Shown here: positions 40,618 through 46,922 of the stretch, one piece after another
Layout of the letters: the number at the start of each line of letters is the position of its first letter
How positions within the stretch are numbered: the stretch's first letter is position 1
Notes under the pieces: generated by a model
Told to the model about the DNA's origin: nothing
The model's database searches: none
What the model saw: the letters and a program-made list of their open reading frames with translations, nothing else
Made by a program: the position numbers and the translations under genes
Assembly: GCA_036169595.1 (NCBI GenBank)
Contig: CM069766.1
Location: 3,996,001-4,060,000 of the forward strand
Direction: 5' to 3'
Source of the DNA: Dictyostelium firmibasis
Lineage: Eukaryota; Evosea; Eumycetozoa; Dictyosteliales; Dictyosteliaceae
Length of the DNA stretch: 64,000 bases

Positions 40618-42314
40618 TTAATAGTTTGTTAAAGCAACTTGTTTTTGAAATGATGGATAAAAGTTTTTCTTTGGATATTTTATGGCAGAAGAAGTTATTG
40701 TTGCTACTGCCCCAAAATCATTATTATCATTATTAATATTATTATTATTATTATCATTATTATTATTATTATTATTATTATTATTATTATTATTATTATT
40801 ATTATTATTATTATTATTATTATTATTATTATTATTATTATTATTATTATTATTATTATTATTATTATTATTATTATTATTATTATTATTATTATTATTA
40901 TTATTATTATTATTATTATTATTATTATTATTATTGTTATTATTATTATTATTATTATTATTATTATTATTATTATTATTATTATTATTATTATTATTAT
41001 TATTATTATTATTATTATTAATATTATTATTATTAATATTATTATTAATATTATTATTTGTGTTTGTGTTATTTAGAAAATAATTATTATTCATATTATT
41101 TAATTCTAATTTTTTAAAAGTTTTTATAGTTTCGTTAAAGGTTGAATAGATTGGTTTTTGTTGAGCTTTATTTTCATTGTTTTGTACAGTTTTATTTATA
41201 TCATTGTCAGAGTTACTATTATTATTTTCGATTATTTTTGGAAGTTTAACTTGTTGTGTTGGATACCAATAATTGCCATTAGGATTTACATTTCCTAAAC
41301 CCAAAACATTTGTGGAATTGTTTTCATAAAATTCTTTCATCATTTCAATATCGATTAATTTTAATTCATACTCTTTGGCATTAGTATTTGATCTACAATA
41401 TAATTTATCAAATAAAATTTTTCTAAACTAAAAAAATTTAATAGATTAAAATTTGTAATTAAAAAATATACAGTAATAATTTTTTTTAATGTGAGACTTA
41501 CATTGTTTTTAGTGAAAAAGCTATGTGGTGAAATTGTGTAATATAAATCTTCATTTCCTTTATCAGAAATATATATAGGTCTGCCATCTGTTGAGAATCT
41601 ATCAAAACCCAAATAAAAGCTTACTTGGTCAACATCAACACCATAATATTGTTTTATTAAATCATATTTTGTTGGTTTATAACTATATTTTTCATAGAAA
41701 TCAATTGAATTGTTAATGATAGTTTGAGATGGTTCTTCAATAGTGGTACCAAATAAAATTGTATGTGATTTATTATTTTTAGTTAATTCCATTATTTGTT
41801 TAAAAGTTTCCAAGAGTATTGGATCATTACCACGTTCCAATAATTTAATATATTCTCCATAAAAAATAACCCGAATATCACATTCCTTATATAACTTTAC
41901 CAAAGTTTCATTTTCCACCAATGCCTTTAATCCCCTTAAATATTTAATAAACTTTGGTAAATATTCTGGTCCACGATCTTCAAGTGTGCAAAACCACATT
42001 GGATAAACGATTGTTTTTATACCATGTTTAAACATCATTACCAAATCGAATAATAATTTTGAGATTGCAGTTTTACAATATTCATCATAATCGATTATAG
42101 TTTTTTCATCTTTTCCATTGTTATTGTTGTTGTTGGTTTTGGTTGAATCTTTTTGATATTTCGAAATTGTATTTTCAATTAAAAAAGATCTTCTAGTACC
42201 ATCATATGCATAAACCATAGTATTACAATTATTTAATCTTAAATTTATAATTTTTGAAATCTCATCATCAGTTAATTTATTGAATTCTTGAAAATTATTA
42301 TAATGTGAGATCAT
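40618..42314 (-). CDS. Rv3378c-like prenyl (terpenyl) transferase, cis-prenyltransferase fold, copy 1
   Basis: Two exons, 42314-41502 and 41427-40618, give 540 residues. The first ~330 residues resemble the mycobacterial tuberculosinyl-adenosine transferase Rv3378c. Shared features are VYAYDGTRRSF (Asp38 in the position of the catalytic Asp of cis-prenyltransferases), HGIKTIVYPMW, LEDRGPEYL, VIFYGEYIKLLERG, PTKYDLIKQYYG, LGFDRFSTDGRP, LYYTISPHSFF and RKILFDKLYCR. A conserved tail GLGNVNPNGNYWYP corresponds to the Rv3378c end (family knowledge recalled from memory). After it comes a disordered tail with a polyasparagine run of more than 80 residues. The family moves a diphosphate-linked terpene onto adenosine or water; substrate here is unknown. 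Its neighbour at 45054-46922 is a paralogue in the same orientation. Confidence 0.8.
40720..41060 (-). repeat. (AAT)n coding for polyasparagine in prenyltransferase copy 1
   Basis: An ATT array on the plus strand reads AAT (Asn) in the minus-strand gene, with occasional ATT and GAT variants giving Ile and Asp. Confidence 0.95.
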
Positions 42315-44376
42315 TATATTTTATTATTTTATATTTTCTTTTTTTATTGTTAAAAATTATTATTTTTTTTTTTTTAAATTTTTATTTATTTATTTTAAAA
42401 AAATTTTGAATTTTTAATTTTTGTAACAAAAAGATTTATTAATAATTTTATATTTGATATATATGTTAAAAAAAAAAAAAAAAAAAAAAAAAAAAAAAAA
42501 AAAATGATTCAATCAAGATTTATTGATAAAAAAAAAAAAAATTTATGTGTTTTTTTTTTTTTTTTTTTTTTTAACATAAATAAAAAAATTAAAAAAATAA
42601 AAAATTTAAAAATGAAAATAAAAAATTAAAGAAAATCTATAACAAGAGTATGTAGGAAGTGTATTTTGATATATAAAATGTGGGAAGGGTGAATTGTTGT
42701 GTAAAATTATTATAAACTTAAACTTTTGTTTTTATAACCTTTGTGATGATAATTTTAATAAATCAAAGATATAATTATAGATGTATCTAATCGATTATTA
42801 TAAAATGTTAATTTTTTAAATACGGATATGAGGTTTTATTAATTTTATTAAATTTTATTAATTTTATTATTTATTTTTTTTTTTTTTTTTTTTTGAAAAA
42901 AAATTTAATAGTTTAAAATAAAAATTTGAAATGATTGTATGTTGATAATAATAATAATAATAATAATAATGATTTTGTTTTAACAAAAATAAAAAAAATA
43001 ATAGATTAAAAAAAATAATGAAAAAAAGAAAATATTTAAAAAAAAAAAAAAAAAAAAAAAAAAAAAAAAAAAAAAAAAAAAAAACTATATATAATTTGGG
43101 AATAATATTTTATGGTTTGAAAAAAATTATTTGTTTTTTTTTAATTTTTTTATTATCATAATCAAAAATATTGAAATATTTTTGGTTTGAACAAGTTGTT
43201 ATAAGTTAATGTTCTACACAATTTTAAAAATAATTTACAAATTTATATTTTAACCTTTTAATTTTACAAATAACTATATACGAAAAAAAAAAAAAAAATA
43301 AATGAAAAAAAAAAAAAATTATTAATAATAATAAATATTGAGAAAAAAAAAAAAATAATAAAAAAAAGAATTAAGAAATACTCTATATAACAACATAAAA
43401 AAATATAAAAAAAAATCATCAAATACAATAATACCAATAATACCAATAATAGCTAACCACATAAATGTTAAAAATTTTAACAATATCAAAATCATTAAAT
43501 ATAAATAAATAATATTATCAACTCTTCAATTCACACAATTCCAAATTAATAGTATTCACCACTTTTTGAAATGCACATTAGATTTTTATTCTATAAATTA
43601 TAATGAACAAAAAATGAGTGAAGAATTTTATTATTTTAAAAAAAAAAAAAAAAAAAAAAAAATACATTTGACTACAAAATCATCAACGATAATATTTAAA
43701 ATGTATATGTGCAAACAAAAAAAAGTATTGTTAAAAAACCACTCATTTATGTATAAGAGGGGTATGTGTTTATTTATATGTGAGGTGGTCAATTAAATGT
43801 TAAAGATTTATATTATAAATATTTTAAAAAAATTATTTTCGCGTGTGAAAATAAGGGTGTTAGGGGTTTACTTGTTTGTATATTTTGGTGGGTCAGTGTT
43901 AGTGGTATTCAATATTTTTTTTTTTGAAAATAAAAGGAGATATTGTGATGATTTATTGAATACAATCTTTATATATTTATATGTTATTAGTTAAACCCAA
44001 AATGGAATATTTTAAAATGAAATAATATTTAAAGTAGGATAAATTGTGGAAAGTATTATTTTGATAAATAGTTGTAAGGTTTTAAAATACAACAAAAAAA
44101 CTTTGGTCATCATCATATGTATCATCATCATCATCATCATCATGATCAATTTCCAATTAGTTAAGTGTTTTTATTTTAATATTAACAACACAACATATGG
44201 ATTGTATTTCTTCTTAAAATGGAAAAAATAAAAACAACATGGTAGTTGTAATACAATTTTTTTAAATTTACAAATCTATATTAACAATAACAATTATAAT
44301 ATTAACATCAACATCAATAAAATAAAATAAAATTAAATCAAAAAATACAAACATTTTCAAAATTAGAAATTTTTAG
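42315..44376. other. Intergenic between the two prenyltransferase genes, left part
   Basis: This is the upstream region of copy 1. It has poly-A/T tracts, an (AAT)n run near 42950-42970 and a (CAT)n run at about 44108-44142. Islands of mixed sequence at 43560-43990 hold short open frames without convincing codon use. No gene is supported. Confidence 0.5.
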
Positions 44377-45053: not shown

Positions 45054-46922
45054 TTAAATAAATTTATCAAGATATCTTGGTGATGAAGGTGAACCACCCA
45101 TTGAAATATTTTGTTTAACAATTATTGCTTGATTATATTGATATTGTTGAACATCCTCATTTCCAACTGGAATTTGTTGTAAATTATGTTGTCTACATCC
45201 CATTAAAATATTATTATTATTATTATTATTATTATTATTATTATTATTATTATTATTATTATTATTATTATTATTATTATTATTATTATTATTATTATTA
45301 TTATTATTATTATTATTATTATTATTATTATTATTATTATTATTATTATTATTATTATTATTATTTTTATTATTATTATTATTATTATTGTTATTATTAA
45401 TAAAATTTGTATTATTACATTTATCAGAATTGTTTAAACTAGTATTTAAATCAAGTTGTTTGAATAGTTTAAATGCTTCATTTTTTGATGGTGTTATTAT
45501 TATTGTTTTTTTGTTAATTTCTTTATTTGATGAATCTATTGACTTTGGAGGTAATTCAACTTGAGGACTTGGATGCCAGTAATTTCCATTAGGATTTACA
45601 TTACCAACTCCCATAATATTATTTGTATTACTTTCATAGAATTTTTTCATCATTTCAATATCATTAACTTTTAATTCATACTCTTTGGGATTTGTTATTG
45701 TTCTTTGATAAATATGATCATACAATACTTTTCTAAACTATAATTTATTGTTTTATAAAAACAATGTTAATATATTAGGTTTAACTTTATTAGAAAAAAA
45801 TAAAAAACATACTCCTTTTGTTGATAAGAAAGAATGTGGTGAAACTGTATAATACAAATCTTCGGCTCCTTTATCTGAAATCAAAATTGGTCTTCCATCT
45901 GTAGAGAATCTATCAAATCCTAAATAAAATGAAACATCATCGACTTCGGTATTAACACCATAATAATGTTGAATTAAATCATTTTTAGTTGGTTCTGTGG
46001 GGAGGGAAAAAAAAAAAAAAAAAAAAAGAAAAAAAAAAAAAAAAAGAAAAAGGGGGTTAGAGGTTTATAAATTTTCAAATAAAATTTTTTTAATAAAAAT
46101 TTAAAAAAAAATCAAAAAAATACCTCTTCCAAATTTTTTGTAAAACGATAATGTATTATCGATAATTGTTTGTGATGGCTCTTCAATATTAGTACCTAAT
46201 AATAAAATTTTTTTGGAATTGTTTTTTGTTTTCTCCATTATCTCTTCAAATTTAGATAAAAGTTCAAAATCATTACCACGTTCCAATAATTTTTTATATT
46301 CACCATAGAAAATAATTCTAACTCCATTCTCTTGAAATATTTTAAAAAAATCAAAATTTGGGTCTAATAATTGTGACAACCCCCATAAATATTGAATAAA
46401 CTTTGGTAAATATTCTGGTCCTCGTTTTTCTAATGTACAAAACCACATTGGGTAAACAATATTTTTTATACCATGCTAATTTTTAATAATAAATATATTT
46501 TCAGAAAATAAAAAATAAATTAATAATTATTAAAAATCACAAAAAAAAAAAAAAAAAAAAAAAAAAAAAAAAAAAATTAATCTTACTTGAAACATCATAA
46601 TAGATAAATATAAAAAATTGTGAATTGCTGTTTTACTATATTCATTATAATCAATCTTAATTTCTTTTCCATTATTGTCAATATCATTTTTAACTTTTAA
46701 ACTCTTGTTATAATTTGCAGTGTTTGAAGTATTTGCAGATGTTGCCAATGGTGAATTTGAACCATTTAAATTTTTTAAACCTTGAGTAATAAGATAAGAT
46801 CTTCTAGTACCATCATATGCAAACACCATTGTTGAATTATTACCTTTTATAGTGGTATATAATTTTGATATTTCATCATTTGATAATTGTAAAAAAATTT
46901 CTTCTAATATATTATTTGACAT
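45054..46922 (-). CDS. Rv3378c-like prenyl (terpenyl) transferase, cis-prenyltransferase fold, copy 2
   Basis: Four exons: 46922-46587, 46475-46124, 45994-45813 and 45737-45054, giving 517 residues. Motifs parallel copy 1: VFAYDGTRRSY (Asp37), HGIKNIVYPMWFC, VRIIFYGEYKKLLERG, PTKNDLIQHYYG, LGFDRFSTDGRP, LYYTVSPHSFL, RKVLYDHIYQR and GVGNVNPNGNYWHP. The RKVLYDHIYQR segment is even closer than copy 1 to my memory of Rv3378c (RRILYDHIYLR). The last intron, before FRK, is shared with copy 1; the first two introns are absent there. A polyasparagine run lies in the C-terminal tail. The two genes differ widely outside the motifs, so the duplication is old. Both look intact. Confidence 0.8.
45209..45402 (-). 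repeat. (AAT)n coding for polyasparagine in prenyltransferase copy 2
   Basis: An ATT array on the plus strand is read as Asn codons by the minus-strand gene. Confidence 0.95.

Follow-up and report, generated by a model that had tools for sequence, protein, structure and literature searches.

Homologues of the mycobacterial terpene enzyme Rv3378c in Dictyostelium firmibasis: a predicted eukaryotic branch with no partner cyclase detected

Rv3378c is the Mycobacterium tuberculosis enzyme making an unusual terpene-adenosine lipid. Rv3378c-like proteins have their superfamily and a DGxRR-type motif in common with canonical cis-prenyltransferases (PF01255). Tuberculosinol synthase and the kolavelool synthase of Herpetosiphon aurantiacus were presented as the only two earlier enzymes of the cis-prenyltransferase family hydrolysing their allylic diphosphates, to which the archaeal MM_0014, accepting water and alcohols, was added (PMC8131916). 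A review that mentions both tuberculosinol and Chloroflexi treats Herpetosiphon in a passage. Homologues of Rv3378c in the microbiome were suggested as the makers of the diterpene purines of marine organisms (PMC7180734), and a 2024 study stated that its initial efforts found no orthologues outside mycobacteria (PMC11476799). The window analysed here, i.e. the whole 64-kb stretch of contig CM069766.1 of Dictyostelium firmibasis, carries two genes on its minus strand, copy 1 (40618..42314) and copy 2 (45054..46922), whose products are, as judged by homology over the full core, members of the Rv3378c-type family. Both are likely to be active enzymes of the Rv3378c/kolavelool-synthase type, predicted to use a linear donor and a nucleophile other than isopentenyl diphosphate (IPP) and to be of bacterial origin.

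Homology to Rv3378c, catalytic residues and fold

Searched with phmmer against all PDB chains, copy 1 matched the Rv3378c chain 3WQK with an expectation value E = 7.3e-39 (residues 75-320) and copy 2 matched the Rv3378c chains with E = 1.2e-35 (residues 90-339), the homology spanning about 245 residues in both. These were the sole significant matches, the best unrelated chains reaching E = 1.3 for copy 1 and 0.74 for copy 2. Identity to Rv3378c amounts to 85/267 aligned positions in copy 1 and 72/254 in copy 2, and the cores of the two copies are 62% identical (206/331). The kinship with Rv3378c proposed in the first-pass annotation is thus borne out for both copies, the alignments being far beyond chance and the catalytic residues kept. 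Of the two outcomes that it named as refuting, a lack of significant similarity and a predicted fold of another kind, neither was encountered, the fold being predicted from homology. The motifs that it listed were each found once per copy, on the minus strand and in the expected order. Its view of the C-terminal blocks as extras of copy 2 did not survive: exon 2 of copy 1 also encodes FRKILFDKLYCR and LGLGNVNPNGNYW, and therefore no feature is special to copy 2. Like Rv3378c (3WQK, 4CMV), the amoeba proteins present DGTRR, the equivalents of Y51 and Y90, FYG(E/D)Y, GF(D/G)RFST and LY(Y/F)T in conserved order; in contrast to it, they are encoded by eukaryotic genes with introns and asparagine-rich tails, and no partner cyclase of the Rv3377c type was found in the genome. 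Neither copy has a real match in Pfam or NCBIfam, in keeping with the label 'hypothetical protein' carried by their relatives.

Catalytic residues were compared in an alignment of 60 rows, 22 of them dictyostelid and including both window copies. Rv3378c presumably needs D34 (of DGTRR), Y51 and Y90, and the numbering of its PDB chain places D, Y and Y at 34, 51 and 90. The equivalents of D34, G35, T36, R37, R38, Y51 and Y90 are kept in all 18 motif-bearing rows among the 22 dictyostelid ones, copies 1 and 2 included. By alignment, DGTRR (D34-R38 of Rv3378c, a putative diphosphate/metal site) lies at 42189..42203 in copy 1 and at 46800..46814 in copy 2. The counterpart of Y51 is the last tyrosine of DYDEY (42078..42092) in copy 1 and of DYNEY (46638..46652) in copy 2, and that of Y90 the last tyrosine of LEDRGPEY (41961..41984) and LEKRGPEY (46410..46433), respectively.

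A cis-prenyltransferase fold is predicted for both copies by their homology to Rv3378c and by the I-TASSER model of a paralogue closest to 3WQM, an Rv3378c chain. AlphaFold modelling of P0001, the D. purpureum orthologue, on a 13-row alignment (mean predicted local distance difference test score, pLDDT, 69; predicted template modelling score 0.70) gave strands alternating with helices over residues 71-230, in blocks of pLDDT 82-96. The I-TASSER model, that of DDB_G0275279, was published with a template modelling score of 0.888 to 3WQM, there termed hydrolase/hydrolase inhibitor, and with decaprenylcistransferase Gene Ontology (GO) terms (PMC8280847, 2021). The available text of that article does not name the Rv3378c family and contains no terpenoid chemistry beyond polyprenol GO terms. 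The earlier statement that no eukaryotic member had been described accordingly holds with one proviso: the family went unnamed, but a model of one member closest to 3WQM was already in print (PMC8280847). Among the matches listed from Creative Commons-licensed PubMed Central, a set outside which most subscription papers lie, no title or abstract beginning presents a eukaryotic member.

The family in dictyostelids and its bacterial relatives

Four genes of the family were identified in the D. firmibasis genome (31.5 Mb, 12 contigs): the two window copies and two genes of contig C4, which encode, after removal of one intron each, exactly RB653_002475 (P0003) and RB653_002261 (P0019). A phase-0 intron immediately ahead of FRK is common to all four. 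Protein searches with dictyostelid queries, which rely on shared five-residue words, returned 25 and 26 proteins; copies 1 and 2 were not among the 25 of the first search and may be missing or differently modelled in public protein sets. Altogether 24 dictyostelid-type proteins were collected, 19 of them named from Dictyostelium, Polysphondylium, Tieghemostelium, Heterostelium, Acytostelium and Cavenderia, six genera that presumably cover all four classical dictyostelid groups. In the tree, four of the other five fall among the dictyostelids; the fifth, P0002, lies outside the tree sample and is 87% identical to copy 1. No relative surfaced from other eukaryotes in the word-based search. The tree comprises 60 rows: Rv3378c, the two copies, 20 of the 24 dictyostelid-type proteins, and a bacterial set made up of 21 loci and 16 of the 124 bacterial-type proteins. 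Its 22 dictyostelid rows form a single clade (100/100). Copy 2 groups with P0005 of D. discoideum (100/100) and copy 1 with P0001 of D. purpureum (99/96); the copies thus pair with orthologues of different species and are therefore a long-standing pair rather than the outcome of a recent duplication. The ratio of nonsynonymous to synonymous substitution rates (dN/dS) is below 1 in six of six gene pairs, those involving the motif-less gene among them (0.28 to 0.52, with dS near saturation), copy 1 and copy 2 differing by a dN of 0.29 and a near-saturated dS of 1.05. The dictyostelid family would have descended from a bacterial gene acquired before the dictyostelid groups diverged.

The DGTRR motif is present in 17 of the 24 dictyostelid-type proteins and absent from seven. 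In a motif-less Dictyostelium subfamily (DDB_G0275279 of D. discoideum AX4, i.e. P0013, with P0015, P0017 and P0019), R37, R38 and Y51 are lost in all four rows, D34 in two and Y90 in two, and the conserved second half is mostly kept. DDB_G0275279 belongs to the same family as the window copies and differs from them in these losses, R37, R38 and Y51 being retained by both copies. Members of this subfamily (P0013-P0019; G000:C4:1471573-1472615 = L003, L007) are in frame and have a dN/dS below 1. The motif-less paralogues are possibly non-catalytic offshoots, perhaps partner subunits. Eukaryotic cis-prenyltransferases are known as catalytic/non-catalytic pairs, DHDDS and NgBR, and the coexistence of motif-bearing and motif-less paralogues resembles, by analogy, a pairing of this type.

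Beyond dictyostelids, a profile of four bacterial-type proteins was applied to the 8000 candidates with the largest number of words in common; of these, 2833 passed (120 listed), so that the relatives of bacterial type number at least 2833. A contig scan, whose patterns were derived from NGTRR proteins and are hence biased toward NGTRR, gave 22 loci, all titled Chloroflexota or a subgroup (Anaerolineae/Anaerolineales in 14). A dictyostelid profile, free of this bias, was run on 400 Chloroflexota genomes and matched in 22 of them, 14 at E < 1e-44 and eight weakly (1.1e-12 to 8.4e-6). NGTRR was read in all 14 strong loci and in 121 of the 124 bacterial-type proteins; the remaining three show no such motif, P0148 being a fragment that begins downstream of its position. 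Five weak loci that were read (L050-L054) have GGTRR or GGSRR, or AGSRR in L052, and are perhaps of the kolavelool-synthase kind; three of them are very distant in the tree, and G occupies position 34 in three very distant rows of the alignment. Eight bacterial-type proteins were compared with copy 1, the highest identity being that of P0145 (36%). No relative was found among 84 pattern matches on viral contigs, and P0145 had no match on plasmids. The NGTRR proteins of Chloroflexota are the non-dictyostelid relatives reached by the searches, some of them bearing the Joint Genome Institute names tuberculosinol/isotuberculosinol synthase or adenosine tuberculosinyltransferase; they differ from the amoeba proteins by an N at the D34 position and by a location mostly beside an Rv3377c-like cyclase.

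In the best tree, Rv3378c sits inside a clade with Chloroflexota as named members (100/98 with L038, L042 and L017, the last from an Anaerolineales bacterium) and the dictyostelid clade is not its sister. The grouping of dictyostelids with Rv3378c that was expected from their common DGTRR is thus not recovered in this tree; when the two are forced together the cost is 9.3 log-likelihood units and the approximately unbiased (AU) test does not reject the joint clade (p-AU = 0.162). Two separate acquisitions, by dictyostelids and by the Rv3378c lineage, are for this reason favoured, not shown. As the 14 strong loci and 121 of the 124 bacterial-type proteins have NGTRR, the D34 shared by Rv3378c and dictyostelids would have arisen by convergence or else be ancestral, with loss of the aspartate more than once. 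No bacterial donor lineage is singled out by the tree, in which the dictyostelid clade has no settled branching position among the remaining basal bacterial rows.

Partner cyclases and genomic surroundings

Coupling to a cyclase is common, not universal, in Chloroflexota. In 19 of the 22 contig-scan loci (L017 itself counted), the Rv3378c-like gene is followed downstream by a homologue of the L017 cyclase, at a distance of about 1 kb in L016 and, in L018, as a weak and only partial match close to the end of the contig; in the three others the contig ends 2, 5 and 45 bases past the Rv3378c-like gene. Within 1.5-kb flanks, 12 of the 14 strong loci of the dictyostelid profile have a cyclase (L034 and L009 being one gene). 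Two downstream cyclases compared with the PDB had as best match 6VPT (E = 3.2e-144 and 3.6e-145), which is presumably Rv3377c. The DXDD motif was read in nine of the 13 downstream cyclase open reading frames (ORFs) examined and not in those of L010, L013, L024 and L029. The pairing of an NGTRR Rv3378c-like gene with an Rv3377c-like cyclase is operon-like (L009-L030 and L034-L049), and a PAS sensor kinase comes next after the pair in four of four Chloroflexota loci tested.

Six-frame searches of the amoeba genome found no class II diterpene cyclase of the Rv3377c type. The L017 cyclase query had no match either, an empty answer that is uninformative alone as it came without a positive control. 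The squalene-type cyclase signal is confined to one region (C5:1186120-1187904), with DCTAE as in oxidosqualene cyclases. The genome further contains one canonical cis-prenyltransferase (PF01255) gene, separate from the family, 16 exon-level matches to polyprenyl synthases (PF00348) and five to class I terpene synthases (PF19086). Clustered PF00348 matches, apparently from several adjoining genes, occur at G000:C1:3337519-3340209 and C5:2424380-2427126.

The two window copies are intact and arranged head to tail with 2.7 kb between them. Copy 1 (540 aa) consists of exons 42314-41502 and 41427-40618, with a single, terminal stop; copy 2 (517 aa) of exons 46922-46587, 46475-46124, 45994-45813 and 45737-45054. 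A conserved core of about 340 residues (about 336 in copy 1) is followed in each by the asparagine-rich tail, with polyasparagine runs beyond the core at residues 408-495 of copy 1 (40756..41019) and 404-413 and 415-466 of copy 2 (45210..45398). The four introns all have GT..AG borders and 83-94% A+T. The phase-0 intron of copy 1 (41428..41501) stands immediately 5' of FRKIL, at the position common to the other three family genes, and intron 3 of copy 2 (45738..45812, phase 0), before FRKVL, matches it; introns 1 and 2 of copy 2 span 46476..46586 and 45995..46123.

Ten neighbouring ORFs, of 21 ORFs listed with the family's own included, were scanned with Pfam in search of a biosynthetic gene cluster. 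Their products are HMG-CoA-lyase-like, FKBP/TPR, pirin, homogentisate dioxygenase, alpha/beta hydrolase, PBD, MutL (two pieces) and ODR4-like (two pieces) proteins, and no obvious terpenoid partner was seen among the ten. Neither an Rfam family at gathering threshold nor a tRNA was detected in the window. Two highly alike pirin genes lie in tandem at 23322-24200 (Pfam) and 25100-25990 (recognized by eye from the translation). A MutL-type mismatch repair gene (35392-40227; HATPase and MutL_C pieces) contains a long polyasparagine stretch and converges on the 3' end of copy 1.

Proposed chemistry and rival readings

The products of copies 1 and 2 are probably terpenyl transferases or hydrolases working on a linear prenyl diphosphate donor without the class II cyclase of their bacterial relatives. 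In this mechanism, an allylic prenyl diphosphate would be bound by DGTRR through its metal-diphosphate and ionised at the allylic C-O bond, and a small nucleophile (water or a metabolite) rather than IPP would trap the resulting terpenyl cation. With no class II diterpene cyclase found, a linear prenyl diphosphate is the most likely donor; it may be geranyl, farnesyl or geranylgeranyl diphosphate or another product of the amoeba prenyl synthases. Candidate acceptors are water, adenosine-type molecules or a terpene. The last possibility recalls firmibasiol, a geranylated sesquiterpene alcohol from D. firmibasis, for which its discoverers proposed that an olefin attacks geranyl diphosphate and water is added (PMC7356884). 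Firmibasiol is a candidate alternative product, its formation fitting the chemistry proposed here. We know of no report of the enzyme responsible for its geranyl transfer. The suggestion of the first-pass annotation that these genes may represent an unstudied terpenoid step in dictyostelids is a well-founded one. The class I terpene synthases of dictyostelids use prenyl diphosphates as well, but their fold is unrelated to that of Rv3378c-like proteins. In a 2018 survey of dictyostelid terpene synthases, 'cis-prenyl' appears nowhere in the main text.

Taken literally, tuberculosinyl-type transfer would require that a bicyclic diterpenyl diphosphate from the amoeba be joined to adenosine. This is very improbable and the first-pass designation of the copies as tuberculosinyl-adenosine transferases finds no support in that literal sense, since a cyclase of the Rv3377c type, which accompanies the bacterial genes in 19/22 loci (12/14 strong ones), was not detected in the amoeba genome and Rv3378c is not the sister of the dictyostelid clade in the best tree; it is nevertheless the closest solved relative, with the same D34, Y51 and Y90, and dictyostelids are known for prenylated adenines such as cytokinins and discadenine. 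Ordinary cis-prenyltransferases making polyprenyl diphosphates from IPP would belong to the same superfamily, and P0019 has a sub-threshold match to the Pfam Prenyltransf family (23.4 bits for a cut-off of 27); decaprenylcistransferase terms were given to DDB_G0275279 (PMC8280847). However, neither copy matches PF01255 up to E = 1, the genome already has its own PF01255 gene, and water or adenosine is used by the named homologues (PMC11476799, PMC8131916), which makes this reading quite improbable.

A mainly structural or regulatory role, e.g. as partner subunit of another prenyltransferase with catalysis secondary or lost, would account for the motif-less subfamily, which lost R37, R38 and Y51 yet stays in frame with its second half mostly kept. 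For the family as a whole it appears improbable, every listed catalytic residue being kept in 18 of the 22 aligned dictyostelid rows. Bacterial contamination or an assembly artefact, to which the bacterial look of the relatives beyond dictyostelids could point, was rejected as scarcely credible on account of the introns, one of them common to four genes, of surroundings of 15-20% G+C and of relatives in many dictyostelid protein sets.

Several points weigh against active, cyclase-independent enzymes. Identity to Rv3378c is low (28-32%), and in the P0001 model the DGTRR block has a pLDDT of 73 and the blocks beyond residue 230 at most 76. D34, Y51 and Y90 are presumptive catalytic residues. Position 34 is N in all 34 aligned bacterial NGTRR rows, whereas it is D in dictyostelids and Rv3378c, so that the link between residue and activity is not a simple one. 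The absence of the cyclase comes from six-frame searches, in which each exon is read separately, and two of the 14 strong bacterial loci (L046 and L048) have no cyclase within 1.5 kb; the lack of a neighbouring cyclase is therefore not unique to amoebae.

The dictyostelid proteins are best described, from their sequences, as a eukaryotic branch within an already known class of enzymes, for which no partner cyclase was detected. If active, they would be the first eukaryotic branch, within the literature searched, of a family that has so far been linked to bacterial diterpenes and to a virulence lipid of tuberculosis. The linked Rv3377c/Rv3378c-like pair of Chloroflexota is a candidate for the pool from which the tuberculosis genes came, and bears on genes whose non-mycobacterial orthologues were at first missed (PMC11476799). 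A more speculative and rather unlikely extension is that dictyostelids make terpene nucleosides or terpenyl-capped small molecules by means of a bacterial-derived, cyclase-less, linear-donor enzyme functioning as a unit of catalytic and non-catalytic paralogues. If this were true, the terpenyl product could act in development, prenyl-adenines being already used by dictyostelids, or in the phagosome, the compartment manipulated by the tuberculosis lipid. The genes would make a possible amoeba route to terpenylated nucleosides or alcohols, unlike that of the class I terpene synthases, testable in a tractable model organism.

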